From: a virus
IMG/VR virus record: IMGVR_UViG_3300032579_000073
Span: 1-24,091 of that record
Strand: one strand, 5' to 3'
DNA: 24,091 nucleotides
The position numbers and the translations under genes are program-made. The notes under the pieces were generated by a model that worked only from the letters and a program-made list of their open reading frames with translations, did not search any database and had not been told where the DNA came from. Below are positions 2,392 to 17,902 of this stretch, in pieces; position 1 is the stretch's first letter, and each line of letters begins with the position of its first letter.

Positions 2392-2471
2392 AAAAAAAAG
2401 CCCTAGTTAGCATCCTCACCTTTTGGGTGTTGGCAGACTCGCGTGTACGAGCAGGATGCTAACTAGGACTT
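2392..2471 (-). terminator. Terminator-like three-way-junction RNA before the O-like gene (element A)
   Basis: On the minus strand, AAG plus CCTAGTTAGCATCCT pairs with AGGATGCTAACTAGG plus CTT to give a 19-bp stem (2453-2471 with 2398-2416) containing one U-G wobble. It sits on a run of eight U (2399-2392), the layout of an intrinsic terminator. The head is not a simple loop: it holds CTCG/CGAG (2438-2441, 2448-2451) and CACC/GGTG (2417-2420, 2426-2429), making a three-way junction. A further hairpin, ATTCCT-GCCA-AGGAAT (2481-2496), lies just before it in the leftward direction. The U run ends 9 bases before the O-like start codon, so read-through must be controlled, or a promoter lies elsewhere. 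On the plus strand there is no T run. Confidence 0.75.
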
Positions 2472-2510
2472 ACACGAGAAATTCCTGCCAAGGAATGCGG
2501 TAAAGATATA

Positions 2511-2789
2511 TTATTTTCTAATATTTTGCAACATGGCTATTGCGTCATCGACGGAATTAACCCGGACCACTAAGCCGCCGCGCCAATTACTCAGATACTT
2601 CAGCTGGTGATCGGTATATCTTGCCTTCTCGCTAGATTTCACTTCAACCAAAATGGTTTGTCCCTGTGTTGCAACCATCAAATCGGGAATCCCATTGCCA
2701 ACTTTGGACAAGTCATAAACGTCAGCGCCCATCAAACGTAAAGCTTTTACGATTTCTTTTTGGTTTTCATCAACCCGTTTTGCATACAT
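2511..2789 (-). CDS. VRR-NUC-type nuclease
   Basis: 92 residues from the ATG at 2789, a start chosen because the family fold begins near this point. A TTG at 2840 in the same frame would add 17 hydrophobic residues of doubtful value. The motif order GIPDLMV (D36), TILVEVKSS (E49-x-K51) and a downstream TDHQLKYL (Q62) is typical of small phage VRR-NUC enzymes of the PD-(D/E)XK superfamily. Such proteins cut branched or flap DNA and are common in phage replication modules. It is the first gene of the leftward operon, reading from the divergent early promoter region. No strong ribosome binding site is seen before either start, so the start is uncertain while the family is fairly secure. Confidence 0.8.
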   Translation of the reverse strand: MYAKRVDENQKEIVKALRLMGADVYDLSKVGNGIPDLMVATQGQTILVEVKSSEKARYTDHQLKYLSNWRGGLVVRVNSVDDAIAMLQNIRK

Positions 2790-2810
2790 AGGGAATGCCG
2801 TAATAACGAA

Positions 2811-2870
2811 AATACAACAATCTAATACTTTTCTGCACAAAGTCTAATACTTGTATATAATAGAACTCAG
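2811..2870. promoter_or_regulatory. Divergent early promoter/operator region
   Basis: An A+T-rich gap between the leftward nuclease gene and the rightward annealing-protein gene. TATAAT at 2856-2861 is a perfect rightward -10 box, with only a poor -35 match near 2833. On the opposite strand TATTAT (2857-2862) could serve leftward transcription. TCTAATACTT is repeated at 2821-2830 and 2843-2852, 22 bases apart (two helical turns), and AATACAACAAT at 2811-2821 recurs at 5094-5104 in the next promoter region. These look like operator sites for a phage regulator that is not in the window. The regulator is inferred. Confidence 0.6.
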
Positions 2871-2905
2871 TAGCACTTCGCTACATTATCACGAAAGGTA
2901 ATCAA

Positions 2906-3460
2906 ATGACTACATTTAACGATCTTCGCAAGATCAATGTTTCAGAATTTACAGAAAAAAAAGGCAATCTAAGCTATTTGTCTTGGGCTTGGGCTGTCGA
3001 TACTTTATTGCAGCACGATCCGATGGCGACTTGGGAATTTACCGAGCCGACATATTTCGGCGAAACCATGATGGTGTATTGCTCAGTTACGGCCTTTGGC
3101 AAAACCATGAAAATGCACTTGCCTGTGATGGACAACAGAAATAACGCTGTCAAAAGCCCTGACTCGCGCAAAGTCAGCGACGCAATGATGCGCTGCCTTG
3201 CCAAATGTATCGCTTGTTTTGGCATCGGTTTGTACATCTATGCTGGCGAGGATTTACCAGTAGAGCCGGAACCGTCCGAAGATGAGCTGGGCGAATTGAC
3301 AACCAAAATCGAAAGCTCAACGTCCGTTGACGAATTGGTTGAAATATTTACTGTGACCAAGGCAAAGTACGCCAAACATCCAAATATCGTCGCAACTGTG
3401 CGCGATTTGTGTGGCGCTCGCAAAAATGAATTACTTTCAACTGAAGCGGAGGTTAAATAA
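2906..3460 (+). CDS. DUF1071 single-strand annealing protein
   Basis: 184 residues. The opening (FNDLRKINVSEFTEKKGN, LSYLSWAWAVDTLL) and the later DAMMRCLAKCIACFGIGLYIY block are the DUF1071 pattern. These proteins are regarded as Rad52-superfamily single-strand annealing recombinases that anneal complementary strands during phage recombination. The acidic C-terminal third is probably an interaction tail. Translation starts after a CACGAAAGG ribosome binding site. The stop overlaps the next gene's ATG as TAATG, coupling it to an exonuclease, and SSB follows two genes later. This is the classical recombinase, exonuclease and SSB grouping. The family is recognised confidently; the annealing role comes from family knowledge. 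Confidence 0.85.
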   Translation: MTTFNDLRKINVSEFTEKKGNLSYLSWAWAVDTLLQHDPMATWEFTEPTYFGETMMVYCSVTAFGKTMKMHLPVMDNRNNAVKSPDSRKVSDAMMRCLAKCIACFGIGLYIYAGEDLPVEPEPSEDELGELTTKIESSTSVDELVEIFTVTKAKYAKHPNIVATVRDLCGARKNELLSTEAEVK

Positions 3461-4164
3461 TGAATATTTACTTTGACATCGAAACTGTACCGGCACAATC
3501 ACCAGCTGCGATTGAATTGCTTAAAAAAGACATCGAAACAGAAATCTCAGCAATAAAATCACCGGGCAATTACAAAGACGAAGCCAAGATTGCCGAATAC
3601 ATCAAAATTAAAACTGATGAAATTACGGCAGCTGCGGATGAGAAATATCGCAAAACGTCATTTGATGGCGGCATGGGTCAGATTTGCGCGATCTCATTTG
3701 CGGTCGATGATATGCACCCGTACAACATTTACCAAGAAGATTGGACCAAAGAATCGGAAATCATCCATGAATTCTATGGTTATCTTGACGATTATTACAA
3801 TCCAAGCACCGATCCTCGTCCAGTATTTATTGGTCACAACGTGGTTGGTTTTGATTTGCGATTCTTATTTCAGCGCTCAGTCATGTTGGGAATCAAGCCG
3901 CCATCATTTATTCCATTTCATGCTAAACCTTGGGATCAATCGGTATTTGACACGATGGTTGCGTGGGCCGGTGTAGGCAATCGGATCAGCATGGATAAAC
4001 TATGCAAAATCTTTGGCATCGAATCCAAGGGCGAGCTGGACGGCAGCAAGGTGTGGGATTACGTTCAGGCCGGGAAGATTGAGGAAGTGGCGGAATATTG
4101 CGGCAAAGATGTCGAGCGCACCCGCGCAATTTACAAACGATTGACATTTCAGGGGTCAAAATGA
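3460..4164 (+). CDS. DnaQ-fold 3'-5' exonuclease (DEDDy, PolB-exonuclease-like)
   Basis: 234 residues. All expected acidic motifs are visible: YFDIETV (D6, E8; Exo I), IGHNVVGFDLRFL (N127, D132; Exo II) and EYCGKDVERT (Y213-x3-D217; Exo III, DEDDy type). The enzyme would degrade DNA 3' to 5' with two metal ions. The sequence resembles the predicted stand-alone exonucleases related to the PolB proofreading domain. A 35-residue Lys/Glu-rich helical insertion (about residues 25-65) follows Exo I. It overlaps the annealing protein upstream (TAATG) and the next small gene downstream (ATGA). The pair probably acts as the phage recombination exonuclease and annealase, although most such partners are 5'-3' enzymes, which makes the polarity here worth noting. 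Confidence 0.85.
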   Translation: MNIYFDIETVPAQSPAAIELLKKDIETEISAIKSPGNYKDEAKIAEYIKIKTDEITAAADEKYRKTSFDGGMGQICAISFAVDDMHPYNIYQEDWTKESEIIHEFYGYLDDYYNPSTDPRPVFIGHNVVGFDLRFLFQRSVMLGIKPPSFIPFHAKPWDQSVFDTMVAWAGVGNRISMDKLCKIFGIESKGELDGSKVWDYVQAGKIEEVAEYCGKDVERTRAIYKRLTFQGSK

Positions 4165-4355
4165 ACCGTGAACTATTACAGCAAGCACTAGACAGGAAAG
4201 CTGATAACGCTCGTGAACTAGGTTTGGATTATGAGCCTGAGCAAGACTGGGACTTACTGAAAGCAACTCAAGAGTCCCTTTGTGAGCACATGGCACGAAT
4301 TAAAGAGTTGGAAGCACAGATAGCCAAGCTGAAGGAGAAAAACAATGAGCGTTAA
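4161..4355 (+). CDS. Small coiled-coil phage protein
   Basis: 64 residues from the ATG at 4161, preceded by AGGGG (4151-4155) and overlapping the exonuclease stop as ATGA. An upstream in-frame start would lie wholly inside the exonuclease gene and is unlikely. The C-terminal half (EHMARIKELEAQIAKLKEK) has a clean heptad pattern, so a short coiled coil is likely. The N-terminal half is charged and helical. It overlaps ssb by 11 bases. Function unknown; the position suggests a small accessory of the recombination/SSB module. Confidence 0.65.
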   Translation: MNRELLQQALDRKADNARELGLDYEPEQDWDLLKATQESLCEHMARIKELEAQIAKLKEKNNER

Positions 4356-4788
4356 CAAAGTAATTTTAATTGGTAACTTAGGCCGCGATCCTGAATTGCG
4401 TTATTCACCCGGCGGCGATGCCATTGCAAACTTTAGTATCGCTTGTACCGAAAAGTACAAAGACAAAGCTGGTCAGGCCGTAGAGCATACTGAATGGATC
4501 AACATTACCATATTTGGGAAACTTGCCGAAATTGCCGGGGAATACCTAAAAAAAGGCGCACCAGTTTTCATCGAGGGTAAAATGCGTACTGAGAAATATA
4601 CGGACAAATCCGGCATCGAAAAGTACAGCACTAAGGTTATTTGCCAAAACTTTCAAATGCTGGGTAGTAAAGCAGAACGGTCCGAATCACCCCGACAATC
4701 GGCAGCGACGGTAAACGACGCAAGGAAGTACGCAGCTGCTACTGGGGGCGAAGGATTGGCGGATATGGATGACGATATTCCATTTTGA
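4345..4788 (+). CDS. ssb: Single-stranded DNA-binding protein
   Basis: 147 residues. The OB-fold core starts NKVILIGNLGRDPELRYSP and continues through EHTEWINITIFGKLAEIAGEYLKKGAPVFIEGKM, the standard bacterial SSB pattern. A short flexible linker leads to an acidic tip, DMDDDIPF, which in bacterial SSBs recruits replication and repair enzymes. It coats single-stranded phage DNA during replication and recombination and could present it to the annealing protein and exonuclease encoded just upstream. The start is preceded by GGAGAAA inside the small coiled-coil gene. The length is slightly shorter than typical host SSBs because the linker is short, as is usual for phage copies. Confidence 0.97.
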   Translation: MSVNKVILIGNLGRDPELRYSPGGDAIANFSIACTEKYKDKAGQAVEHTEWINITIFGKLAEIAGEYLKKGAPVFIEGKMRTEKYTDKSGIEKYSTKVICQNFQMLGSKAERSESPRQSAATVNDARKYAAATGGEGLADMDDDIPF

Positions 4789-4845
4789 TTTACCGAAAGC
4801 GGATGCTGGTTTAAATAGTGTTTTCCAGTGCAGCGAGTAGTGACA

Positions 4846-4861
4846 CCCCGGAAAGACGGGG
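4846..4861 (+). other. GC-rich hairpin after ssb (possible weak terminator)
   Basis: CCCCG, a 6-base loop, then CGGGG, followed by ATTTCT. It lies 57 bases after the ssb stop and 26 bases before the secreted-peptide gene. The T content after the stem is poor, so termination would be weak; it may instead protect the upstream mRNA end. Confidence 0.35.
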
Positions 4862-4887
4862 ATTTCTAAACTTTGAGGAGCAGTGCC

Positions 4888-5013
4888 ATGAAAAAAGTAA
4901 TCGCAATTGCGTTGTTTTTAGCATCAGCATCAGCATTTGCAGCTTGCCCACCATACACAACCTATGGATGCACACCAATGCCCAACGGCAAAATGTCTTG
5001 CGGCTGTAGATAA
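4888..5013 (+). CDS. Small secreted cysteine-containing peptide (41 aa)
   Basis: ATG at 4888 follows GAGGAG (4875-4880) at 7 bases, one of the best ribosome binding sites in the region. The N-terminus (MKKVIAIALFLASASAFA) is a textbook signal peptide: Lys-Lys, a hydrophobic core and an AFA-A type signal peptidase I site after residue 18. The mature part is only about 23 residues, with four Cys (residues 20, 28, 38 and 40) and several Pro/Gly/Tyr, so disulfides in the periplasm are likely. The Cys at +2 is not in a proper lipobox. I do not know the family. It lies between the ssb hairpin and structured element C, so it may form its own small transcription unit. A role in superinfection exclusion or envelope modification is a guess. 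Confidence 0.7.
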   Translation: MKKVIAIALFLASASAFAACPPYTTYGCTPMPNGKMSCGCR

Positions 5014-5019
5014 GTCAAC

Positions 5020-5081
5020 GGGGAATCCTTGTCGAGCTGGTATCTCAAACTACCGAATCCTTTCGTGGGCAGGGATTCCCC
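5020..5081 (+). ncRNA. Structured RNA element C (three-way junction candidate)
   Basis: The outer stem pairs 5020-5033 with 5068-5081: nine perfect pairs (GGGGAATCC with GGATTCCCC) continued by five pairs that include two G-U wobbles. Inside are GGTA/TACC (5039-5042 with 5051-5054) and a small CGAA-TCCT-TTCG hairpin (5054-5065). The wobbles pair only in plus-strand RNA. It starts 6 bases after the stop of the secreted-peptide gene. No T run follows, so it is not an ordinary terminator. GAATCCTT occurs twice (5023-5030 and 5055-5062). Confidence 0.55.
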
Positions 5082-5093
5082 ACCTTATGCACA

Positions 5094-5147
5094 AATACAA
5101 CAATGTATTAGAAATTTGTTGCATAGGTTATTGGGTAGATGTATTAT
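5094..5147 (+). promoter_or_regulatory. Promoter with operator-like motif before gene 5188-5502
   Basis: TTGCAT (5119-5124), a 17-base spacer and TATTAT (5142-5147) form a sigma70-type promoter with a good -10 and partial -35. AATACAACAAT (5094-5104), followed by GTATTAGA (5105-5112), mirrors the early promoter at 2811-2852, where the same 11-mer is followed by the inverted form of that octamer. A shared regulator is likely but not shown. Confidence 0.6.
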
Positions 5148-5187
5148 AAAACCGTAGTAAAGATCAACACACGAAAGGAAGATCAAA

Positions 5188-5502
5188 ATGAAATACGCAA
5201 ATTTCTTTGGTTACAGCGACATTGACCCCTATAAGGTTATTCGTGTCGTTAGCGAAAAATGTTTGGAAGTGCAAGAAATGATTGCCAAGCTCGACGAAGT
5301 AGCGTTCAAGCCTGAATTTGTCACCGGCGGTTTTTCGGCAATTTGTGTAAACCAGTATGAGCAAAAGTGGAATATCGAAAGCGATGTAAATGGTCGCGTA
5401 ATTCGGATTCGCTTGGGTAAAGATGGGGTTTGGAAAGATCGGGATGGTAGAAAATTTGGATTGTCTGACCAGCCTTGCAAATTTTACGATTACAACTTTT
5501 AA
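5188..5502 (+). CDS. Hypothetical early phage protein
   Basis: 104 residues with no recognised domain. It starts after CACGAAAGGAAG, the ribosome binding sequence shared with the annealing-protein gene and the small membrane peptide gene. The protein alternates charged helices (EKCLEVQEMIAKLDE) with strand-like segments (IRIRLGKDGVWKDRDGRKFG), so a small alpha/beta fold is likely. It has no signal peptide or membrane segment. It is the first gene behind the promoter at 5119-5147, an early or middle-gene position. Function unknown. Confidence 0.75.
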   Translation: MKYANFFGYSDIDPYKVIRVVSEKCLEVQEMIAKLDEVAFKPEFVTGGFSAICVNQYEQKWNIESDVNGRVIRIRLGKDGVWKDRDGRKFGLSDQPCKFYDYNF

Positions 5503-5507
5503 TTTCC

Positions 5508-5521
5508 GGGGCTACGGCCCC
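5508..5521 (+). other. GGGGC-UACG-GCCCC hairpin
   Basis: A perfect 5-bp GC stem closed by a UACG tetraloop on a C-G pair, an exceptionally stable UNCG-type loop. It lies between the stop at 5502 and the CACGAAAGG ribosome binding site at 5524. Only two T follow, so it more likely marks an mRNA stability or partial-termination site than a full terminator. Confidence 0.5.
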
Positions 5522-5539
5522 TTCACGAAAGGAAAAATT

Positions 5540-5614
5540 ATGAAAGACTTATTAATTTCTGTGGTTGGCTGGCTTTTAATTTTGCTCCCTATCGTTGCAT
5601 GGTGGATCAAATGA
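5540..5614 (+). CDS. 24-residue single-pass membrane peptide
   Basis: ATG at 5540 follows CACGAAAGGAAAAATT, a strong ribosome binding site of the phage's own type. The peptide is almost one hydrophobic helix (LLISVVGWLLILLPIVAWWI) with an N-terminal Lys-Asp and a C-terminal Lys. Its stop overlaps the next ATG as ATGA. The strong initiation site and the coupling argue that it is translated. It may insert in the inner membrane or act mainly as a translational lead for the next gene. No family recognised. Confidence 0.6.
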   Translation: MKDLLISVVGWLLILLPIVAWWIK

Positions 5615-5811
5615 AAATATCCACTCCGGCATTTCCTACATGGGTGGGTAATCAAGACATGGCCCCGGGCATGACGCTGCGAGTTTATATTGCGACCGCA
5701 GCATTGCAGGGGTTTTGTGCTAATCACGACATGGACAAAATCACCATCGGTCAGGCCGCAGATTGGGCATTTCGCATGGCGGATGAAATGATAAAAGTGA
5801 GCAATAAATAA
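5611..5811 (+). CDS. Small phage hypothetical protein
   Basis: 66 residues from the ATG at 5611, which overlaps the membrane-peptide stop (ATGA) and follows GGTGG at 7 bases; an in-frame ATG at 5599 is less well placed. The pattern GMTLRVYIATAALQGFCANH followed by an AADWAFRMADEMIK helix resembles a widespread family of small phage proteins that read GMTLRDYFAxxAL...YxxADAML. Their function is unknown. The stop overlaps the next start as TAATG, so it is coupled on both sides. Confidence 0.7.
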   Translation: MKISTPAFPTWVGNQDMAPGMTLRVYIATAALQGFCANHDMDKITIGQAADWAFRMADEMIKVSNK

Positions 5812-5996
5812 TGGACATGAATCAAATAGCCTATGAGCTGGGTTACTCGAAAGCTCAAAACGAAGTATGGATGCAACTTCTACGCATGATTTTGAACGCT
5901 GAAAAAAACGCCAATTTTGAGGCGGTCGAATATTTTCAGATTGTTTTCAAAGCATTAAACGATGGCGCATTAAAGCCAATTGGGGTAAAACCATGA
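5811..5996 (+). CDS. Small helical hypothetical protein
   Basis: 61 residues. The ATG at 5811 shares a base with the preceding stop (TAATG); ATG 5817 two codons later is an alternative. The sequence is mostly amphipathic helix (NEVWMQLLRMILNAEKNANFEAVEYFQIVFKAL is its core, residues 17 to 50 in two parts). No motif, signal or membrane segment. Its stop overlaps the following gene as ATGA. Reality is supported by coupling at both ends; function unknown. Confidence 0.6.
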   Translation: MDMNQIAYELGYSKAQNEVWMQLLRMILNAEKNANFEAVEYFQIVFKALNDGALKPIGVKP

Positions 5997-6172
5997 AAAA
6001 TCGATTGTTTGACTGTAGCGAAGGCCAGCTCGAACTGGATAAACTCATGCGTAAATATCACAACTTGGTTGTCCGAAACGATTATGAAAACGCTTTGCCC
6101 ATTGCTGGCGAGATCAAACACGTTTCAGCATTGCTTTATGAATGGACCAAGCAAAGGGCAGCCGGTGACTGA
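5993..6172 (+). CDS. Small helical hypothetical protein (59 aa)
   Basis: ATG at 5993 overlaps the previous stop (ATGA) and the frame runs 59 codons to the TGA at 6170-6172. The protein begins MKNRLFDCSEGQLELDKLM and ends ALLYEWTKQRAAGD; it is charged and helical and recognised as no family. It fills the stretch between its neighbours exactly. The HD-hydrolase gene begins 8 bases before its end, with a ribosome binding site (AGGG, 6155-6158) inside this gene. The other long frame in this stretch is Cys/Trp/Thr-rich and without a plausible start, so this frame is preferred. Confidence 0.65.
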   Translation: MKNRLFDCSEGQLELDKLMRKYHNLVVRNDYENALPIAGEIKHVSALLYEWTKQRAAGD

Positions 6173-6593
6173 TGTGAACTTGGAAACCGCCATTTCAATT
6201 GCAGCCATTGCACACAATGGTCAGGTTGACAAGGGCGGTAATCCCTATATCCTCCACCCGCTGCGCGTCATGCAGTGCTTTCAAAACACGCAGCATCAAA
6301 CCGTCGCTGTTCTACACGATTTAGTCGAGGACACCGATTGGACATTCGAAAAACTCCGAGTAACTGGATTTTCTTGCACCATCGTTGATGCACTGGACGC
6401 ATTGACCAAGCGCAAAGGCGAAGGTTATTTAGAATTCATCCATCGAGCAAGTCAAAACCCAATCGCAAAAAAAGTAAAACTTGCCGATTTATTAGATAAC
6501 ATCGATCTAGGCCGTATCCCAAACCCAACACCCGAAGATTACGCTCGCGTCAAAAAATACGACGAAGCGATAAAAATGATATTGAACTGGTAA
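6165..6593 (+). CDS. SpoT/MESH1-like HD hydrolase (alarmone hydrolase candidate)
   Basis: 142 residues from GTG 6165, chosen because AGGG lies 6 bases upstream and the family N-terminus begins here. Motifs in order: H17-x2-Q20 with KGGNPYILHPLRV (H31), VAVLHDLVEDT (H51-D52 with E55-D56, the HDxxED signature) and KLADLLDNI (D108). These match the metal-binding and catalytic set of the ppGpp hydrolase domain of SpoT/Rel and the stand-alone MESH1 enzymes. No synthetase domain is present. The expected reaction is removal of the 3'-pyrophosphate of (p)ppGpp or a related nucleotide, which would blunt the host's stringent response. Substrate is inferred; small phage HD proteins may prefer other nucleotides. 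Confidence 0.8.
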   Translation: MTDVNLETAISIAAIAHNGQVDKGGNPYILHPLRVMQCFQNTQHQTVAVLHDLVEDTDWTFEKLRVTGFSCTIVDALDALTKRKGEGYLEFIHRASQNPIAKKVKLADLLDNIDLGRIPNPTPEDYARVKKYDEAIKMILNW

Positions 6594-6611
6594 TACATCC
6601 TGTATGATAAT
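6582..6611 (+). promoter_or_regulatory. Promoter candidate before gene 6644-6946
   Basis: TTGAAC (6582-6587), an 18-base spacer and GATAAT (6606-6611). The palindrome ATACA-TCC-TGTAT (6593-6605) lies between the boxes and could be an operator. The -35 is inside the end of the HD-hydrolase gene. The gap 6594-6643 holds no gene. Confidence 0.5.
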
Positions 6612-6643
6612 GTCATATATTAATTTTAACGATCTATGACACC

Positions 6644-6946
6644 ATGTCGATAAATGCCGTACAAAAGATTCGCGGGTTATTCCGGGAAAAGCAGCAAGCG
6701 ATGACGAATGCCGAGATCAAAACGCATTTGCCTGAACTCAAGCCGTCGGACATTTCGATGGCGATGTGCTATTTGCTCAAACAGCGCTACGCGACCCGGG
6801 AGTTGATACCAGTACAAAACCCCAAAGCTCGCAAAACGGTTTGGATGTACACCTATTTTGATGCCCCACTGCCAAAGGACAACAGTGAAGCAGCTATTCA
6901 TACTGGCACATTCGTCAGCTCGCGCAAACGCTATACAAGCGATTAA
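6644..6946 (+). CDS. Winged-helix-like phage protein
   Basis: 100 residues. The first 55 residues read as a compact helical module (AVQKIRGLFREKQQAMTN, then AEIKTHLPELKPSDISMAM, then a short strand) typical of a winged helix with a recognition helix near residues 36-49. A polar tail follows. It is first behind the promoter at 6582-6611 and directly before ninB, which starts inside its 3' end, so it may regulate this recombination block or the late genes. No strong ribosome binding site is obvious at the ATG. The domain call rests on helix pattern and is tentative. Confidence 0.6.
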   Translation: MSINAVQKIRGLFREKQQAMTNAEIKTHLPELKPSDISMAMCYLLKQRYATRELIPVQNPKARKTVWMYTYFDAPLPKDNSEAAIHTGTFVSSRKRYTSD

Positions 6947-7262
6947 GGATGCTCCCGATGGATACACCGTCGAAATCAAACCCAAAAATCGATCCCTTGA
7001 GCAAAATGCAAAGCTACACGCAATCTTGGGCGAAATTTCACGAACGACTGAATGGGCCGGACGAAAAAGAGATATTGAAACGTGGAAACGATTGCTTACT
7101 GCTGCGTGGATGCGTGAAAGAGGAGAAAACGTAGAACTACTCCCCGCGCTCGATGGTCATGGCGTTGATATTGTATTTCGTCATACATCATCATTAACCG
7201 TAAATGAAATGATTGAGCTGATAGAATATATTATGGCGTGGCAGCATGGCATCGAAAGCTGA
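6885..7262 (+). CDS. ninB: NinB-family recombination protein (lambda Orf-like)
   Basis: 125 residues from GTG 6885, preceded by AAAGGA at 5 bases. The sequence follows the NinB pattern: KQLFILAHSSARANAIQAI, then GYTVEIKPKNRSLEQNAKLHAILGEI, then an EWAGRKRDIETWKRLL block. Lambda Orf/NinB is a single-strand/SSB-interacting mediator that helps load the annealing recombinase and can replace RecFOR. Here the annealing protein and SSB encoded upstream are the probable partners. It overlaps both the winged-helix gene (by 62 bases) and the Ref-like gene (by 17 bases), as in compact nin regions. Confidence 0.9.
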   Translation: MKQLFILAHSSARANAIQAIKDAPDGYTVEIKPKNRSLEQNAKLHAILGEISRTTEWAGRKRDIETWKRLLTAAWMRERGENVELLPALDGHGVDIVFRHTSSLTVNEMIELIEYIMAWQHGIES

Positions 7263-7530
7263 ACAGAAATATTTTGCAAAGCTGGCTGATTTCGGTTGCA
7301 TACTTTGTTACAAGCTAGGATATGGCGAAGGCACACCAAGCGAGATTCACCATTTACGAAAAGCAGGGATAAGAGCTAATGCACCAGTTATACCGCTTTG
7401 CCCGGAACATCATCGGGGAAATACGGGAATTCATGGTTTGGGTAAAAAAGCATTCGAAAGGATGTATGATTTAACTGAAGATGATTTATTACAATTGACA
7501 CACTTTATGATCGGAGCGCCAAATGGCTGA
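7246..7530 (+). CDS. Ref-like HNH/zinc-binding nuclease
   Basis: 94 residues. Motif order: CILC (C18, C21), EIHHLRKAG (H35-H36), IPLCPEHHRG (C52, H55-H56) and GIHGLGKKAFERMY (H63). This matches the phage P1 Ref type, a RecA-dependent HNH-superfamily DNase, and related small phage proteins. The paired Cys/His bind a structural zinc while the second HH block forms the active site. It follows ninB directly, the position where lambda has the Holliday nuclease Rap/NinG, so it probably supplies the junction- or D-loop-cutting step of phage recombination. Function beyond the fold is inferred. Confidence 0.85.
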   Translation: MASKAEQKYFAKLADFGCILCYKLGYGEGTPSEIHHLRKAGIRANAPVIPLCPEHHRGNTGIHGLGKKAFERMYDLTEDDLLQLTHFMIGAPNG

Positions 7531-7825
7531 TACAAATGATTCCACTAATCCTAGTAACGCTGCTGTGCCTACCGTTCCTGATGCTACTGGGAACGCTACA
7601 CCTGCTGCTATTCCTGTTCAGGCCAATCCCGTTCCTAGTGTCAGCTCTACTGATAATTTGGCTCATGGATCATCTACGGTAAGTAAAGAAAACTTCGTTC
7701 AGAAATTCATTGCCGACGTAGAGTACGAAATAAAGAAACTGGAATCGATCACTAGCTTATTTCATGTCGCATCAATCAAGAAAAACATTCATGCTTTGAT
7801 TGCTGATGTGAAATCCAAACTTTGA
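7523..7825 (+). CDS. Hypothetical protein with Ala/Pro/Thr-rich N-terminus
   Basis: 100 residues. The ATG overlaps the Ref-like gene by 8 bases and follows GGAGCG. Residues 1-50 are low complexity (Asn, Thr, Pro, Ala, Val, Ser) and probably disordered; residues 54-100 form charged helices (EIKKLESITSLFHVASIKKN). No family recognised. It is the last gene before the late promoter and structured element B, so it may be an early-to-late control protein, but nothing in the sequence shows this. Confidence 0.6.
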   Translation: MADTNDSTNPSNAAVPTVPDATGNATPAAIPVQANPVPSVSSTDNLAHGSSTVSKENFVQKFIADVEYEIKKLESITSLFHVASIKKNIHALIADVKSKL

Positions 7826-7831
7826 TACTAT
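7823..7831 (+). promoter_or_regulatory. Extended -10 late promoter candidate
   Basis: TG-A-TACTAT is an extended -10 element (TGn plus a hexamer matching TATAAT at 4 of 6). It has no convincing -35 at normal spacing, as is common for extended -10 promoters. Transcription would begin at about 7838, at the 5' arm of structured element B, and run into the terminase and head genes. It overlaps the end of the preceding gene. Confidence 0.45.
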
Positions 7832-7838
7832 AGAAACC

Positions 7839-7903
7839 GTCAGGCCAGCGGAGCGCCGTCCTCGCTTCGACAGGGGTCCCTCCTCCACCTGAACTGGCCT
7901 GAC
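7839..7903 (+). ncRNA. Structured RNA element B (three-way junction) in the terminase leader
   Basis: GTCAGGCCAG (7839-7848) pairs perfectly with CTGGCCTGAC (7894-7903). Inside, 7849-7855 pairs with 7863-7869 (seven pairs, one G-U) around loop CCGTCCT. A second arm, CAGGGG with CC-A-CCTG (7871-7876 with 7885-7891), forms six pairs with a bulged A around loop TCCCTCCT. Nearly every base of the 65 is in a stem or apical loop. It sits 11 bases before the TerS ATG, which has no purine-rich ribosome binding site. No T run follows, so it is not a terminator. Confidence 0.75.
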
Positions 7904-7914
7904 ACCCTCGCATC

Positions 7915-8355
7915 ATGGAAACTACTCGACCCGTTGGCAGACCGTCAGATTACAACGATGAAATCGCCGAAATCATTTGCAATCGGATTGCCGAAGGCGA
8001 AAGTCTAGTCAAAATATGTAAGGACGAATCAATGCCGGGAAGGTCAACGGCTTTGAGATGGCTATCAATCCATCCCAAATTTCGGGACAGATACGCGTTA
8101 GCGCGGGAAGCTCAAGCCGATTACTTGCTGGAGCAGCTGCTAGATATTGCCGACGCTGTAGAGGATGACACCTACGAAGATAAGGATGGGCGGGTACGAA
8201 CCAATCACGAAGTGGTCAATCGATCCCGGCTGCGTATTGATACTCGCAAATGGATTATTGCCAAACTTGCGCCTAAGAAATACGGCGATGTAAAAGATAC
8301 CGATACGCATCAAACTGTGGTCCGAAACTGGATAGAAGAACCGGATGTCGAATGA
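7915..8355 (+). CDS. terS: Terminase small subunit
   Basis: 146 residues. TTRPVGRPSDY followed by EIICNRIAEGESLVKICKD and MPGRSTALRWLSIHPKFRDRY is the standard N-terminal helix-turn-helix of phage small terminases. It recognises the packaging start site and recruits the large subunit. Residues 70-146 give the oligomerisation helix and a polar tail. The start agrees with the family N-terminus, although CACCCTCGCATC before the ATG has no Shine-Dalgarno match. TerL follows with an 11-base overlap. The structured element directly upstream is therefore the leader of the packaging operon. Confidence 0.93.
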   Translation: METTRPVGRPSDYNDEIAEIICNRIAEGESLVKICKDESMPGRSTALRWLSIHPKFRDRYALAREAQADYLLEQLLDIADAVEDDTYEDKDGRVRTNHEVVNRSRLRIDTRKWIIAKLAPKKYGDVKDTDTHQTVVRNWIEEPDVE

Positions 8356-9625: not shown

Positions 9626-9627
9626 AT

Positions 9628-12563: not shown

Positions 12564-12786
12564 AAGAATTAGAAATCGTGAAAATGTCCCTCCCTCTGAC
12601 GTTGTTGGTTTGACTGAGGATGAAATGGAAATTTTCATTGACGAATTCAATCGCCCCCCATTTATAGAATTGGTTGATGCTGGTACTGAGGAAGAATGGG
12701 AAAAAGCAGAGGCAGAGAGAAAAGAAATTAACCATGAAAATGGCTATGATGACAACGGCAATATTGTTGATCCACTTCCAACATGA
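12535..12786 (+). CDS. Small acidic protein, possible partner/immunity of the metallopeptidase
   Basis: 83 residues. ATG 12535 follows AAAGGA at 5 bases and overlaps the metallopeptidase gene by 29 bases. I count 22 Asp/Glu against 9 Lys/Arg, giving a strongly negative protein. It has a helical start (LVKLVKRIRNRE) and a segment of hydrophobic-acidic alternation (GLTEDEMEIFIDEFNRPPF). No signal or membrane segment and no known family. Tight coupling to a candidate toxin and the shared low GC suggest the two moved together, which is typical of toxin-immunity pairs. It could equally be a chaperone or a packaging tag for the peptidase. The stop overlaps the MuF-like gene (ATGA). Confidence 0.65.
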   Translation: MSENLVKLVKRIRNRENVPPSDVVGLTEDEMEIFIDEFNRPPFIELVDAGTEEEWEKAEAERKEINHENGYDDNGNIVDPLPT

Positions 12787-13589
12787 CATTTTTCGAAGTA
12801 CTTACAGCTGCGGTAAATGAATTCATTGAATATGGGTTTGATTCGCAAACTCGTGTCGAGCGTTGGGTGCGGTTGTTGAAAGAGGCAGCTCTTGCACAAA
12901 TGATCCCCGAGCATCAAATGCAAATAGCGATGGAAAAATCGCTAGGCGCTGCATTTACCCGGCTGGTAACAAAAGGCGGTTTAGTTAATAAGCACGTTTC
13001 ACGCTACAGCATCGAAAAGCTAAAACCAACCCTTCGTGCTGAACTTGATCGACGCATCATGGCAAGCGCCAATCTGATTAAATACAATCGTCAAGAATCA
13101 ATTAGCAATCTGCTACGACGTTTTGAAGGCTGGGCCACATCAATCCCACCGGGCGGAACGGACATTGTTAACCGGGTCAAAGAAAAACAAAAGATCAAAA
13201 AATCACTTGGCAATGTGACATTTGAACAGCGTCGGGTCATTATTGACCAAACGCACAAATTGATCTCTAACATTAACGAAATCGTAGCTATGGACAATGG
13301 CGCGATTGGTGGTCGCTGGCATTCACATTGGCGACAAATCAATTACGACTATCGCAAAGACCATAAAGAGCGCGACGAAAAAATATACGTCGTGCGCGGC
13401 AGCTGGGCGGACAAGGCCGGTTATCTCGATCCCAAAAACGGATATACCGATCAAATCACGCAACCCGGCGAGGAAGTGTTTTGTCGGTGCAATTACTCAT
13501 ACATTTACAACTTGCGCGACATGAAAGATTTGTTGACAGATAAAGGCAAAATTGCGTTAGAATCTGCAAAAATGTCTAAGGCCGCATAG
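12783..13589 (+). CDS. Phage head morphogenesis protein (MuF/SPP1 gp7-like)
   Basis: 268 residues. The C-terminal part carries the MuF domain pattern: a helical stretch, then RWHSHWRQINYDYRKDHKER (about 178-197), a hydrophobic strand IYVVRGSW and the closing PGEEVFCRCNY (C234, C236), the Cys-Arg-Cys signature of the family. These minor head proteins bind the portal and may be ejected with DNA. In many phages this gene carries C-terminal toxin domains; here it has none, and the metallopeptidase is a separate upstream gene. The start overlaps the acidic gene (ATGA). The polyprotein gene follows after 2 bases. Confidence 0.85.
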   Translation: MTFFEVLTAAVNEFIEYGFDSQTRVERWVRLLKEAALAQMIPEHQMQIAMEKSLGAAFTRLVTKGGLVNKHVSRYSIEKLKPTLRAELDRRIMASANLIKYNRQESISNLLRRFEGWATSIPPGGTDIVNRVKEKQKIKKSLGNVTFEQRRVIIDQTHKLISNINEIVAMDNGAIGGRWHSHWRQINYDYRKDHKERDEKIYVVRGSWADKAGYLDPKNGYTDQITQPGEEVFCRCNYSYIYNLRDMKDLLTDKGKIALESAKMSKAA

Positions 13590-13591
13590 AT

Positions 13592-16138
13592 ATGCCATTC
13601 GCTTCGGAAAAACAACGCAAAGCCATGTACGCCGCCGCTACCGGCAAGAGCAACATCGGCATTCCGAAAGCCGCCGCAAAAAAATTCATTAAGCATAGTA
13701 AAGATACGATGAAAGCCCCATCATTGCTTGCTTTGCCTACCGAAAAAAATAAAAACGAAGATTCCGACGTAATGGTTCGCGCTGGTGATAAGCGCAACGA
13801 ATTAAAAGGTTTGTCAAACGAACTTGCCGAAATTTTTCAACATTTAAGTGAACTCAAAGACGATGAGAGCGAAACTGTTCCGCGCTTTGAGGATGATTCC
13901 GAGGCATGGCAAACCAAAGAAGGCAAAAACAAAAATGGCGGCTTAAATGAAAAAGGCCGCGAATCGTATAACAAAACGCATGGCGCACATTTAAAAGCGC
14001 CCCAACCCGAAGGCGGATCACGCAAGGCATCGTTCTGCGCTCGCATGAAGGGTATGAAAGCAAAATTAACGTCATCCAAAACGGCGCACGATCCTGATTC
14101 GAGAATCAATAAAGCGCTTAGAAAATGGAAATGTGATGACGATTTGAAAGATGATTTGTCCAAAATCTGCGACAGCATTTTAGAATACGCGTCCGCTATA
14201 CCTGATGACGATCCTTGCTGGCAGGGATATAAGCAATTGGGTATGAAAGAAAAAGACGGCAAACAAGTGCCAAACTGTGTGCCTGATGCCGCCGATCCAG
14301 TAGCAGCTGCTCCGCTTGCTGTCGATCCGATTATGCACGATGGTCCAATGGGTCGCTCGTCCGGGATTATGTTTATGACATCCGAAGGCGAAACCTTGTT
14401 AATCCGTCGTGGAATGGGTGGCGGTGATTTCCCCGGTACTTGGTGCGTCCCCGGTGGTCATCAAAAACATGATGAAACCCTCGAAGAATGCGCTAGGCGC
14501 GAATGCGAGGAGGAAACCGGCCTGAAGTACGAAGGCAAGCTCGAAGTATTGCACGATGATGGTCAATTCTGCACATATATCGCTCGCGACGTAAATAAGG
14601 GCGATGTCAAACTGAATTACGAATCGAGTGGTTACGATTGGTGCGATCCTAAAAATCCTCCCATGCCATTGCACCCCGGCCTTGATGTGGCCTTTCGTGT
14701 AGCGATGGCAAAAACAGAATTTGATATGGCGGAGTTGATGCGCGAAGGCGTATTGCCTAGTCCACAAATGTACGCCAATGTGATGCTGCTATCGATCCGC
14801 ATTACCGGGACCGGATTGGCTTATCGTTCAAGCATTGGCGAACACGTTTGGCGCGATCCATCGTTATATTTAAACGACGATTTTTTAAAACGCTGTCAAG
14901 GTTTGGTTGTCATTATGGACCATCCTGAATCAGCCGTATTAACATCTAAAGAATTCAAAGACCGAGCTGTCGGGACGGTGATGCTACCGTACATCAAGGG
15001 CGATGAAGTATGGGGAATTGCTAAGATTTACGATCAAAGCTCTATTGACGAGATTTGTGAAGGAGAAATTAGCACTTCACCATCGGTGGTATTTGACAAT
15101 ACTGCCGGAAATACTACACTAACGACAGAAAACGGAGAACCGCTTCTGATTGAAGGTGTACCCTTCCTTTTGGACCATATAGCAATCGTTACGAAAGCTC
15201 GTGGCTCTAAAGGGGTTTGGGACAAAGGTGGCGATCCAGCCGGAGTTTTACTAACTAACCCTGAGGTATCTGCTATGTCAGACAATACTACCGCGCCGAA
15301 GGCAGATGCCCAAGGCGATAAACTCGATGCCATTCTATCAATGTTGGGCAATGTTATTGCTCGCGTTGACGAAATGGAGAAAACTTTACCCGCGCCCCCA
15401 CTGGTCACAGCTGCTGACAAGAAAAAGGCCAAAAAAGATGATGATGATCGTATGCGTAAGGACGATGATGAGGAAGAAGAATCCGAATCTGAAGCTAAAC
15501 GCGAAATGATGCGTAAGATGGACAAAAAACGCAAAGACGACGACGATGATGCCATGTGCGACGATGACGATGAAGATGATCGTAAAGACGACGACATGAA
15601 ACATCGTAAAGATGCCAAAAAGCGTAAAGACGACGCTGAAGGCTCTGATCCTAAAGAGCATGGTCCAGCTGGCGAAATGAAGCCTGATGATGATGCAATG
15701 TGCGATGATGAAGAAGAAGCTATGAAGGCCGACGAAGAAGAAGCTAAATATGCCGACGCTCAAGCTAAAGCTGACAGCGTAATGGCATCGTTTGGCAAAT
15801 CAGCTTCCCGTCCTTTGAAGGGCGAAAGTTTGTTGTCATACCGTAAACGCCTATTGCGCGGCTTGCAAGCCTACTCCGACGCATATAAGGACATCAACCT
15901 TGCAGCTATCAAAGATGCAAAATTGTTGTCGCTTGCTGAGAAGCAGATTTTTGCTGACGCACAAGCTGCCGCTAAGTCACCACTGACCTATGCAGCAGAT
16001 CAGGAAATTGAAATCCATGAGCGTGATCGCGCTGGTCGTGTGATTACGAAATTCAAGGGTGGCTTTGGCTGGATGGACGCATTTAAAGTGCCTTCCATGC
16101 GCGTCAAAGAATTCAATTTGAACAACAACAAGCGATAA
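13592..16138 (+). CDS. Head-maturation polyprotein: DUF6321-like, NUDIX, DUF2213 prohead protease, scaffold
   Basis: 848 residues in a chain of modules. Residues 1-35 are a short basic leader (MPFASEKQRKAMYAAATGKS). Residues about 100-181 hold the AWQTKEGKNKNGGLNEKGR and RKASFCARMKGMKAKLTSSK pattern (DUF6321-like). A GYKQLGMKEKDGKQVPNCVP segment follows (212-231). Residues about 252-372 are a NUDIX hydrolase with a complete NUDIX box from G289 through E295 and R303-E304 to E307-E308 and G310. Residues about 380-560 match DUF2213 prohead proteases (VVIMDHPES, H444; GEISTSPSVVF, Ser 494-498). Residues 562-848 are a coiled, extremely Asp/Lys-rich scaffold with a conserved-looking C-terminus. It should assemble and mature the prohead. 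The NUDIX insertion is unusual. Confidence 0.85.
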   Translation: MPFASEKQRKAMYAAATGKSNIGIPKAAAKKFIKHSKDTMKAPSLLALPTEKNKNEDSDVMVRAGDKRNELKGLSNELAEIFQHLSELKDDESETVPRFEDDSEAWQTKEGKNKNGGLNEKGRESYNKTHGAHLKAPQPEGGSRKASFCARMKGMKAKLTSSKTAHDPDSRINKALRKWKCDDDLKDDLSKICDSILEYASAIPDDDPCWQGYKQLGMKEKDGKQVPNCVPDAADPVAAAPLAVDPIMHDGPMGRSSGIMFMTSEGETLLIRRGMGGGDFPGTWCVPGGHQKHDETLEECARRECEEETGLKYEGKLEVLHDDGQFCTYIARDVNKGDVKLNYESSGYDWCDPKNPPMPLHPGLDVAFRVAMAKTEFDMAELMREGVLPSPQMYANVMLLSIRITGTGLAYRSSIGEHVWRDPSLYLNDDFLKRCQGLVVIMDHPESAVLTSKEFKDRAVGTVMLPYIKGDEVWGIAKIYDQSSIDEICEGEISTSPSVVFDNTAGNTTLTTENGEPLLIEGVPFLLDHIAIVTKARGSKGVWDKGGDPAGVLLTNPEVSAMSDNTTAPKADAQGDKLDAILSMLGNVIARVDEMEKTLPAPPLVTAADKKKAKKDDDDRMRKDDDEEEESESEAKREMMRKMDKKRKDDDDDAMCDDDDEDDRKDDDMKHRKDAKKRKDDAEGSDPKEHGPAGEMKPDDDAMCDDEEEAMKADEEEAKYADAQAKADSVMASFGKSASRPLKGESLLSYRKRLLRGLQAYSDAYKDINLAAIKDAKLLSLAEKQIFADAQAAAKSPLTYAADQEIEIHERDRAGRVITKFKGGFGWMDAFKVPSMRVKEFNLNNNKR
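15275..16138 (+). CDS. Scaffolding protein from internal in-frame start (Nu3-like)
   Basis: ATG 15275 is in frame with the polyprotein (Met562) and preceded by GAGGT (15263-15267) at 7 bases, a better ribosome binding site than that of the full-length gene. The product would be 287 residues: a short helix (DKLDAILSMLGNVIARVDEM), a long charged Asp/Glu/Lys/Arg-rich stretch with the octamer DDAMCDDD and its near copy DDAMCDDE, and a C-terminal domain (about the last 110 residues) that could bind capsid protein. This is the arrangement of lambda C/Nu3, where the scaffold is made from an internal start of the protease gene. The start is inferred from sequence only. Confidence 0.6.
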   Translation: MSDNTTAPKADAQGDKLDAILSMLGNVIARVDEMEKTLPAPPLVTAADKKKAKKDDDDRMRKDDDEEEESESEAKREMMRKMDKKRKDDDDDAMCDDDDEDDRKDDDMKHRKDAKKRKDDAEGSDPKEHGPAGEMKPDDDAMCDDEEEAMKADEEEAKYADAQAKADSVMASFGKSASRPLKGESLLSYRKRLLRGLQAYSDAYKDINLAAIKDAKLLSLAEKQIFADAQAAAKSPLTYAADQEIEIHERDRAGRVITKFKGGFGWMDAFKVPSMRVKEFNLNNNKR

Positions 16139-16149
16139 GGAAATAGATC

Positions 16150-16770
16150 ATGTCAGCATTAATCTCGATCAACCCTATGGCTACGACCAACGCTGCTGGT
16201 CTATTTAACACCAACAGCGCTGGTTATACCCAAGGTGATGCACAAGACGATCCCGCGGTCAAATTTGCTTTGGCTGGTGGCGTACTTTCAACTTCAGCTA
16301 CTAGCCCACTATGGGGCGGTGTGCCAATTCAGGAATTTATTCCCGGCGCGGCTGCACAACCCGGTACGGATACCCTCGGTTCTACGATTCTGCAAGCTAC
16401 GACTTCAGCCGTACCATCGGGTATTTGCGTATTCAACCAAGCATACGGTGGCATTACGACTCCTCAGTCAACTGCTCCTTTGTATTCACCCGGTATGTCG
16501 GTTAACTACTACCGTTTTGGAAGTGGCGCTCGTATTCCTCTCGCTTGTGATTCAAGCGTTGTTGCACTGGATGGCAACCTGTCATCGTCAACGGTGTACT
16601 ACAACTACAGCACAAACGTGTTGACCACGACCCAACCATCGGGTCAGGCTGCACTGCCAGTGAAGATTCTGAAAGTTAGCGCCAGTGGCAATAAAACGGT
16701 GTCGTATAACAGCGGCTCCAATACTGCTAACTGGGTTTACAATCAACCAGTGGCTTTGTGCCTAATCTAA
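16150..16770 (+). CDS. Head decoration/cement protein candidate
   Basis: 206 residues, rich in Ser, Thr, Ala, Gly, Asn and Tyr with almost no Lys/Arg/Glu, a beta-rich composition usual for capsid cement or decoration proteins. The start follows AAGGAAATAGATC, a late-gene ribosome binding context also seen before the tail-tube gene. SPLWGGVPIQEFIPG resembles a segment found in phage structural cement proteins. It lies between scaffold and major capsid gene, the usual place for decoration proteins. The exact family is not certain. Confidence 0.75.
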   Translation: MSALISINPMATTNAAGLFNTNSAGYTQGDAQDDPAVKFALAGGVLSTSATSPLWGGVPIQEFIPGAAAQPGTDTLGSTILQATTSAVPSGICVFNQAYGGITTPQSTAPLYSPGMSVNYYRFGSGARIPLACDSSVVALDGNLSSSTVYYNYSTNVLTTTQPSGQAALPVKILKVSASGNKTVSYNSGSNTANWVYNQPVALCLI

Positions 16771-16783
16771 TAAGGAAACTATC

Positions 16784-17809
16784 ATGTCAGGTTTCGCACC
16801 GTCATTTGTTACAGTAAACCCGCACTACATGATGCCCGAGCTGATTATGCAATACAGCTTGGCTTCCGGCGCATTTACGACTCTTGCTACTGAAAACCCA
16901 ATGCCTCGCATTGGCGAAGCTGATCTCTACGTTTACGCGAAAAAGGTCCAGCTGACCACTCAAGTGCAAGCCAACCAATCGCAAGTTAACCAATTGCCAA
17001 GCGCATCGGTTATTCCTTCGATGATCTCAACCGCAACGTACCGTTTGCAAACCCGCGCTCAGTACGATAATTTTGACGAAGCCGCTACCGGTGCATGGGG
17101 TTATGCTTTACCCCAAGCAATGCGCCTTGCTGCCCGTCAAGGTATCGCACAGCAGCTGCGTAATGCTCTGCTGTACGGCTACAACCCTGCCAACGGCGAA
17201 GGCTTGTTGAATACTGCTGGTGCAACCACTGCTACCCTTGGTGCTGACACCAATGGTAACGTCGGTTATTCCAAGTGGGATTCGGGCCAGCTTGCTCAGT
17301 ATTTGCTGAACATGATCGGTTCGTTGAAAGTCAGTACATTGCAAATCGGTCAACCGCTGCGCTTGGTATTCTTGGCTCCTCAACGCTTTATCAGCCAAAT
17401 TTCGTACAGCGGCGTTGTGTCATTGACCCAATTCCAACGTATCGGCGCTGGTGTTGAAACCGCAGCTGGTTTGGTTGAAACCGTCGCTCAATGGGCAGGT
17501 GGTGATGACGTTAGCTTTGCAGCTGACGACACTCTCATCGGTCAAGGCGCTGGTGGCACTGACGCTATCTTGTTGGTTGCTCCTGAATTGAAGATTCCTA
17601 AGGCTAACGCTCAAATCAACACCAACATTTTTGCAACTTTGACCCCAAATCAAACTGCAACTACTTTGATGCTGACTGACGTATCTGCACCTACCGAAAT
17701 TCCTACGCCAATTCCTGACGGTGGTATTACTACCCTGTACACGATGCGTTCGACTTCCGGCTGGGGTATCCGTCCTGAAGGTCTTTACATTTTGTCCGCT
17801 GCCTATTAA
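16784..17809 (+). CDS. Major capsid protein (DUF2184 type)
   Basis: 341 residues. The YDNFDEAATGAWGYALPQAM segment, the long helix AARQGIAQQLRNALLYG and the C-terminal TPIPDGGITTLYTMRSTSGW with GIRPEGLYIL are typical of DUF2184 capsid proteins, an HK97-fold group. No N-terminal delta domain is evident, which agrees with a separate scaffold. AAGGAAACTATC precedes the ATG. Codon use is even and smooth, as expected for the most abundant phage protein. A promoter-like sequence overlaps its last codons. Confidence 0.93.
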   Translation: MSGFAPSFVTVNPHYMMPELIMQYSLASGAFTTLATENPMPRIGEADLYVYAKKVQLTTQVQANQSQVNQLPSASVIPSMISTATYRLQTRAQYDNFDEAATGAWGYALPQAMRLAARQGIAQQLRNALLYGYNPANGEGLLNTAGATTATLGADTNGNVGYSKWDSGQLAQYLLNMIGSLKVSTLQIGQPLRLVFLAPQRFISQISYSGVVSLTQFQRIGAGVETAAGLVETVAQWAGGDDVSFAADDTLIGQGAGGTDAILLVAPELKIPKANAQINTNIFATLTPNQTATTLMLTDVSAPTEIPTPIPDGGITTLYTMRSTSGWGIRPEGLYILSAAY

Positions 17810-17820
17810 GACGGTATATT
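17792..17820 (+). promoter_or_regulatory. Promoter candidate after the capsid gene
   Basis: TTGTCC (17792-17797), 17 bases and TATATT (17815-17820): 4 of 6 and 5 of 6 consensus matches. The -35 lies in the last capsid codons. The expected +1 falls at about 17827, the first base of structured element D. It would add transcription of the connector and tail genes. Confidence 0.5.
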
Positions 17821-17826
17821 GACAAA

Positions 17827-17902
17827 CCCCGAGTGATGCCGGGGAATGATTCAATGGGCAGTGGGTTTCCCTTAAAAAAGGAAGCCGCATCATCACTGCC
17901 CA
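17827..17902 (+). ncRNA. Structured RNA element D (two hairpins, possible pseudoknot)
   Basis: Hairpin 1 is CCCCG/CGGGG (17827-17831 with 17840-17844). Hairpin 2 has outer arms TGGGCAGTG and CACTGCCCA (17855-17863 with 17894-17902) and an inner stem GGTTTCC/GGAAGCC (17864-17870 with 17880-17886, one G-U), leaving GCATCAT (17887-17893) unpaired on one side. TGATGC in the loop of hairpin 1 (17834-17839) is the perfect complement of GCATCA (17887-17892), so a kissing or pseudoknot contact is possible. It ends 18 bases before the next start codon, and no T run follows. Confidence 0.6.

Follow-up and report, generated by a model that had tools for sequence, protein, structure and literature searches.

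Three covarying RNA families in a phage genome, probable leaders of replication, packaging and post-capsid messages

Between gene blocks of a 24,091-base virus record (IMG/VR IMGVR_UViG_3300032579_000073; the whole stretch is called the window here) lie three structured RNA elements, A, B and D, whose paired positions covary among relatives. By sequence comparison, A, B and D are three separate conserved RNA families, unrelated to one another in sequence. The families seem to be uncatalogued and, judging from the motifs around them, seem to stand at the start of phage messages. Since relatives keep the RNA shape, a role in switching or tuning the downstream genes is probable. The reading that we prefer, and hold to be probable, is that A, B and D are cis-acting 5′ leaders, with A a transcription attenuator and B and D tuning translation or stability. 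The window carries phage genes: an endolysin, PDDEXK and VRR-NUC nucleases, a DUF1376 primosomal protein, a Sak-like annealing protein, NinB, terminase subunits, portal and capsid. Its TerL is less than 60% identical to each of 51 matching named phage records.

A first-pass annotation of this DNA had folded four intergenic elements by hand, the three above and a fourth, C, and had treated them as one recurring class of structured RNA. All four fold where it placed them. On the transcribed strand, fold z scores against 200 dinucleotide shuffles are −8.5 for A, −3.9 for B, −3.3 for C and −3.7 for D; no shuffle folds as well as A, B or D, and one folds as well as C. The annotation had also held that the G-U pairs are possible only in RNA from the transcribed strand. 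This fits the fold energies, which favor that strand over the opposite one in each case: −41.0 versus −33.7 kcal/mol for A, −33.9 versus −31.6 for B, −27.7 versus −21.8 for C, and −32.9 versus −31.2 for D.

An Rfam search and a search for covariation in homologues had been proposed in advance as checks. With Rfam 15 at E up to 5, the whole window gives two weak matches, neither at any of the elements, and at the gathering score there is no match at any element scanned. In ten short loci bearing A, D or B, scanned at E up to 3, other families match weakly five times, in each case far short of the gathering score; one of these five, MIR1514, overlaps element B in L471. A literature search found no title or abstract describing A, B or D. 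The covariation search gave a positive answer for all three, well above shuffles, and strongly supports the proposed selection as RNA. The shuffle controls leave kinship among the sequences in place; it is the slid-partner controls, run for A, B and D, and the many types of the second pseudoknot of A that tell against chance as the source of the pairing.

Element A and the gene behind it are laid out as follows, all on the minus strand (P, paired helix; PK, pseudoknot).

2392..2496, minus: element A, full extent (covariation in 53 rows, blind helix scan; the fold z score above is for the part noted earlier)
2481-2496, minus: hairpin P1, loop 2486-2491, outside the range of the first-pass annotation
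2486-2491 with 2430-2435, minus: PK1, the P1 loop with a 3′ strand
2472-2476 with 2442-2446, minus: PK2, 5′ strand with 3′ strand
2454-2471 with 2398-2415, minus: closing stem P2
2438-2451, minus: P3
2417-2429, minus: P4
2392-2399, minus: U8 run, directly after the closing stem
2504..2513, minus: −10-like AT-rich stretch upstream of A, found by eye, at a position that agrees with the box of 114 of 118 distinct relatives
1630..2382, minus: gene for the DUF1376/primosomal protein led by A (PHROG 6451, PF07120)

A is a three-way junction, as had been claimed. The hairpin noted at first covers P2, P3 and P4 of a longer RNA, and the pseudoknots of A and D had been missed. PK2 links the P1–P2 linker to the P3 loop. 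Relatives of A came from a scan with the primosomal protein (at least 80 loci) and from a pattern scan of IMG/VR, where A is common (at least 120 stretches). The pattern fixed P3 and the PK1 3′ strand only. The loci examined contain 123 unique A copies, and exactly one copy is found in each of 134 loci with the A core.

Alignment A7 joins 52 of 100 distinct A elements with the window, giving 53 rows. In it, 97.4% of cells are paired versus 77.8% in shuffles, and double changes are present in 30 of 41 pairs. PK2 covaries at all 5 pairs; PK1 is 100% paired and has one covarying pair. The PK1 5′ loop, UUGGC(A/G), is found in 120 of the 123 elements (35–38 nt upstream in 116), as against 2.9% in shuffled flanks. 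This 5′ strand had been left free in the search pattern. The PK2 strands were first read by hand, and the test was repeated without hand reading. A Watson-Crick run of at least 5 pairs occurs in 78 of 85 distinct A elements, whereas permuted pairs give a mean of 11.6 and a maximum of 21. PK2 is hypervariable, with 35 loop types.

The surroundings of A are nearly as regular as its body. Of 118 distinct upstream regions, 114 have a −10-like box that begins 14–24 nt before the P1 loop; windows of the same width farther upstream give 17, 17 and 28, and shuffles give 34. Downstream of the closing stem, 121 of 123 copies have a run of at least five U residues, which sits at +28 to +33 in 113 of 119. 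An ATG or GTG opening a frame follows 16–22 nt after the start of the U-run in 103 of 112; these distances cover ATG and GTG only, with TTG inside the U-run (distances 6–8) excluded, six contigs too short and one without a start. GGA or GGG stands between U-run and start codon in 98 of 112. In the window, the DUF1376 start codon lies 17 nt after the U8 run begins, with 9 nt between the end of the run and the ATG. A has the anatomy of an intrinsic terminator, a stable covarying stem with a U-run at once after it, and forms a discrete unit of about 105–110 nt between a promoter-like box and a terminator-like end. The first gene downstream belongs to one cluster around the DUF1376 protein in 64 of 112 cases, and a primosomal gene lies within 2.5 kb of A in 70 of 119 when later genes are counted.

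A query from L116 found A in two named phage records, and a query from L230 found none in plasmids. The A core is present in 0 of 398 genomes of the phylum to which the Bradyrhizobium genome holding L325 belongs. In MW202462.1 (L529:817-1059), a "hypothetical protein" annotated on the opposite strand overlies an A element; that reading frame is possibly spurious. On a phage contig, an A-type leader is preceded, at a distance of about 150 nt, by a Betaproteobacteria-1 RNA (RF02932, 103 bits) at L232:955-1071. At L373:885-1250, L384:1640-2110 and L433:5228-5581, a T5orf172/MUG113 gene or an HNH_3 with AP2 gene separates the A leader from the primosomal gene; by their domains, the inserted genes look homing-endonuclease-like. 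In A7, columns 8–14 and 48–54 would allow the P1 loop to pair, with wobbles and with no covariation, with the 5′ strand of P3, a possible folding intermediate.

Element D adjoins the capsid gene and one downstream gene and lies between them. It is not a three-way junction, and its P1 hairpin (17827-17844) falls inside the range first annotated. Its features are these.

17827..17902, plus: element D (covariance model match, 86.5 bits; covariation in 50 distinct rows)
17827-17831 with 17840-17844, plus: P1
17834-17839 with 17887-17892, plus: pseudoknot, the P1 loop with a 3′ strand
about 17855-17864 with 17893-17902, plus: P2
about 17864-17870 with 17880-17886, plus: P3
17815..17820, plus: −10-like box TATATT, 6 nt before P1
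17921..18424, plus: gene directly after D (PHROG 6737, function unassigned there)

Relatives of D were collected with the major capsid protein, as the best 80 of 129 IMG/VR loci. The interval from the capsid gene to the next gene is complete in 78 of the 80, and the same arrangement is present throughout. The order is a terminator after the capsid gene (in many), a TATNNT-like box (usually), P1 with the loop (A/U)GUGAUGC, a linker, the closing stem P2 of about 11 pairs, the inner hairpin P3, the strand GCAUCA and the 3′ side of P2; in most capsid loci, CACCC then stands shortly 5′ of the start codon. The pseudoknot UGAUGC/GCAUCA was found by automatic reading in 73 of 78 loci and by eye in the remaining 5 (L071 and L079 groups), where the automatic reading took another repeat and the family model matches. 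Compensatory changes give UCAAGC/GCUUGA in L028, L032 and L067, UGAAGC/GCUUCA in L033 and UCAUGC/GCAUGA in L016.

The D model was built from 34 rows, fewer than the 49 available, and does not contain the pseudoknot; all capsid loci were then searched. It gives 81 matches in 88 sources, namely 79 of the 80 capsid loci, the window and L329, and none at A or B sites. The 79 include all 78 loci with a complete interval, together with L048, which is cut off by its contig end; the locus left without a match, L042, ends 330 nt after the capsid gene. In 50 distinct rows, in an alignment fitted to the nested helices, 99.3% of cells are paired versus 80.4% in shuffles, double changes are present in 18 of 25 pairs, and the covariation score is 0.562 versus 0.187. 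With slid partners, pairing falls to 33.5–51.4%. The −10-like box is in the same place in 40 of 46 distinct relatives, versus 9 and 6 in upstream windows and 15.9 in shuffles. A pattern search of viral contigs gave 56 stretches, 53 of them new, of which 51 are real by their stems and two (L258, L264) are chance. Among 34 stretches on genome contigs, only L329 is real by its stems; it is a metagenome-assembled genome contig labelled Mucilaginibacter and perhaps a misbinned phage. A query from L029 found no D in named phages.

In most of 13 relatives that were aligned, the protein encoded directly after D ends in a basic, GRPRK-like tail. On that ground it could bind nucleic acid, perhaps D itself. 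It has no Pfam family, its best fold match in the PDB is at E 0.33, and its AlphaFold model has a pLDDT of 71.8 with a disordered tail.

Element B precedes terS, as follows.

7839..7903, plus: element B (9-row alignment; five relatives fold alike)
7839-7848 with 7894-7903, plus: P2
7849-7855 with 7863-7869, plus: P3, loop CCGUCCU
7871-7874 with 7888-7891, plus: P4
7823..7831, plus: extended −10-like box TGATACTAT, 7 nt before B
7915..8355, plus: terS, the gene led by B (PHROG 1482, terminase small subunit)

B is a three-way junction, as had been claimed, and the five folded relatives give the same junction. All twelve distinct flanked copies lie upstream of terS, and each is preceded by the box TGNTANNAT (by eye; the alignment columns are invariant). 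By eye, the copies show no clear Shine-Dalgarno sequence before terS. The loop is CUGUCC in relatives and CCGUCC in the window and L004. In the 9 rows, 94.8% of cells are paired versus 79.1% in shuffles, double changes are present in 9 of 15 pairs, a level reached by 2 of 500 shuffles, and the covariation score is 0.550 versus 0.237. A match of the B pattern in L252 was rejected as an unrelated palindrome.

The proposal of one recurring class thus holds in part. The elements do share little sequence, and A, B and D fall into three families. A and D have a core topology in common, in which the loop of a 5′ hairpin pairs with a strand 3′ of the inner hairpin, inside the closing stem; B is without it. 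In a blind helix scan (at least 4 pairs, 85% pairing), A has six covarying helices and D has four, every one within the proposed structure. For D, no covarying helix of at least 4 pairs lies outside the structure; a laxer scan gave two 3-pair candidates with some covariation (columns 3/26 and 52/144).

How might these RNAs act? Because a −10-like box lies just upstream, each probably begins near +1. Three features argue for leaders that act in cis: the box resembling a promoter, the covariation of the body and the nearly fixed spacing to the start codon. In A, whose end resembles a terminator, attenuation is the simplest explanation. The sequences themselves show the folds, the pseudoknots, their positions and the covariation; from the motifs we infer promoter and terminator activity, and likewise the direction of regulation and the part of any ligand or protein. 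Transcription of A would start at P1, and the RNA would fold into a body with two pseudoknots. The closing stem and U-run would then form an intrinsic terminator just before the start codon, most often that of a replication gene, so that most transcripts would end early as a short stable RNA, leaving read-through as the only source of the gene product. The closest described anatomy to A, as far as the comparison of parts goes, is RCd22 of the phage-borne AbiF system of C. difficile (abiF RNA, RF03085), which is described in PMC12373285 as working by riboswitch-like premature termination, in the order promoter, structured RNA of about 100–130 nt, intrinsic terminator, ribosome-binding site and start codon. 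RCd22 has abiF motifs and a toxin gene downstream, whereas A mostly leads a replication gene; A gave no abiF match where scanned. With D, a new transcription unit would begin behind the major capsid gene; being without a terminator, D would most likely set the translation or stability of the message that follows. B would do for terS what D does for its message. For D and B, an action on translation or stability is our default guess. The first-pass annotation had offered two roles, antitermination or regulation of the genes behind the elements; the latter is the better half of that guess and is held here as probable.

Several points weigh against the cis-leader reading. The evidence throughout is sequence analysis alone. 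The −10-like stretch of A in the window is a weaker match than that of most relatives. The blind scan of A found no covarying alternative helix that competes with the terminator stem, and the alternative helices of 4–7 pairs that do exist do not covary; a bound factor or plain read-through is therefore likelier than a two-state switch. No primosomal gene was recognised within 2.5 kb of 40 of 119 A elements (9 further contigs end too soon), which suggests that the regulated gene varies. Over the Shine-Dalgarno sequence of D, a candidate small hairpin of at least 3 pairs is present in 48 of 50 rows and may be chance. The B alignment has only 9 rows, the row for the window has its P3 shifted out of register, and one of five measures, further pair types, is not above shuffles (285 of 500). 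B is missing by eye before terS in many other capsid relatives and so is optional.

The terminated short RNA of A might instead be the product itself, acting in trans (in immunity, incompatibility or protein binding, like P4 CI RNA or RCd22), with read-through to the gene secondary. We think this unlikely. A is a discrete unit with its own promoter-like box, terminator-like end and single copy per locus, and PK2 varies as a specificity tag would. There is also a precedent in P4, which blocks its own replication genes by a leader RNA and premature termination (PMC4825925). The P4 CI RNA (and c4 antisense RNA, RF01695) is like A in that a leader RNA stops replication-gene transcription early; it differs in that, according to the same source, it works by antisense pairing with seqA and seqC. 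The analysis of A covered pairing within the element. A variable paired PK2 sequence is also expected from neutral helix drift, the near-constant spacing of the start codon after the A U-run across different genes points to cis control, and D and B have no U-run of A's kind. A plainer account, that the fold only protects the 5′ end against degradation or assists a weak ribosome site, would fit structures that start shortly after a −10-like box and the lack of a clear Shine-Dalgarno sequence before terS in B copies. A plain hairpin would suffice for that, and the pseudoknots and invariant loops (PK1 in A, the GUGAUGC loop in D and the GUCC loop in B) need more, as does the terminator-like end of A; moreover, most A copies have GGA or GGG before the start codon. 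We regard it as quite improbable.

The suggestion that these are processive antiterminators like HK022 put, acting on RNA polymerase, now looks very unlikely. A, B and D are phage-borne, promoter-proximal and about 65–110 nt long, like putL, which lies just downstream of its promoter (PMC9378689); thus the analogy stands as to placement. As to function it is not supported. The put RNAs, putL and putR, are described there as two stem-loops (about 70 nt) with antiterminator activity, which suppress termination far downstream without protein factors, and the word "pseudoknot" does not occur in that text. In A, B and D a closing stem encloses inner arms, pseudoknots are present in A and D, and A carries its own terminator-like end before the gene. 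Of 17 D loci, 12 have a strong predicted terminator at D or up to 315 nt before it, and at least 3 have one downstream of D within up to 10 kb, so there is little sign of targets for an antiterminator; the downstream count is a lower bound, since the strict scanner overlooked terminators in front of D that are visible by eye in L031 and L032. Hardly credible is a signal at the level of DNA, such as a packaging site near terS for B, a cruciform or a protein site. Packaging sites are often near terS, and B adjoins it, but the elements fold better on the transcribed strand, relatives have their G-U pairs on that strand, and the −10-like box is on the matching side. Among other known RNAs, the pistol ribozyme, considered for its similar P1-loop pseudoknot, was rejected: relative to the inner hairpin, its pseudoknot strand lies on the opposite side, and no Rfam pistol match was found in the window or the ten short loci. 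The manA and wcaG motifs of cyanophages are also structured phage RNAs, manA being common in potential 5′ UTRs (PMC2864571); their sequences and genes are other ones, and Rfam gave no match to them at the elements scanned.

The int-alpA RNA (RF02996) bears more directly on the leader reading of A. It too forms a three-way junction, and in other phages it lies immediately upstream of this primosomal gene, a placement noted here and outside Rfam's definition; in its consensus, the closing stem is followed by a U-run and AGGG. It differs from A in that its model has no 5′ P1 hairpin or PK1, and in its conserved core CUAG, CGAAAAG, CCUG. The int-alpA model matches none of the A, B or D elements scanned, including 20 A-bearing loci at gathering. 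In 81 sequences, the window and 80 among the matches listed, the slot ahead of the primosomal gene holds A in 7 and an int-alpA-like RNA in 51; 21 are "other" and 2 are too short. The classes were assigned by regular expression, and several of the 21 show an int-alpA-like core by eye. By these assignments, two unlike leader RNAs serve one gene. The Rfam model matches the slot in 7 of 8 int-alpA-like loci scanned, at E 1.8e-5 to 0.22, with one above gathering; that six of the seven fall below suggests that the family may be larger than the model finds. Among 12 loci of mixed kinds scanned at gathering, it matches L207 only. Matches directly ahead of DUF1376 genes are at L207:5024-5092 and L225:1962-2038 and in L177, L180, L192, L201, L216 and L235. 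A literature search that left the original int-alpA paper aside found no text on int-alpA.

The fourth element stands apart.

5020..5081, plus: element C, a candidate stable hairpin with internal arms

Its claimed three-way form is found in the centroid only; the minimum-energy fold differs. Among the loci examined, C gave identical copies and three weak partial matches (E 0.97 or worse), with no divergent relatives, and none was found in named phages. Just before it, at window 4888-5013, a short reading frame of less than 60 codons has, by eye, a signal-peptide-like start and a Cys-containing end. Just after it, a 35-nt stretch (window 5086-5120) is 94% identical to L004:5223-5257, beside a different gene in a close relative, and is a possible shared operator. 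By eye, a promoter-like sequence follows this stretch, and CTAATAC motifs lie at about 2820-2861.

A wider picture can be drawn, to which we give little credence. It would be a general device in unrelated phages, a folded RNA at the transcription start that is swappable between families (A, int-alpA-like), with the 5′ hairpin loop of A and D docking into the closing-stem junction, terminated A acting in trans and PK2 serving as an immunity-group tag. If true, related phages would shut off each other's replication operon via the PK2 tag of A. On the preferred reading, that A, B and D are cis-acting leaders, the window has three strongly covarying RNA families at uncultured-phage control points, ahead of replication, packaging and post-capsid genes, and the covariation indicates which paired changes should preserve function. 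That one gene is preceded in some phages by A and in others by an int-alpA-like RNA, together with placement near +1, suggests a role for int-alpA as well: leader control of the phage replication operon.

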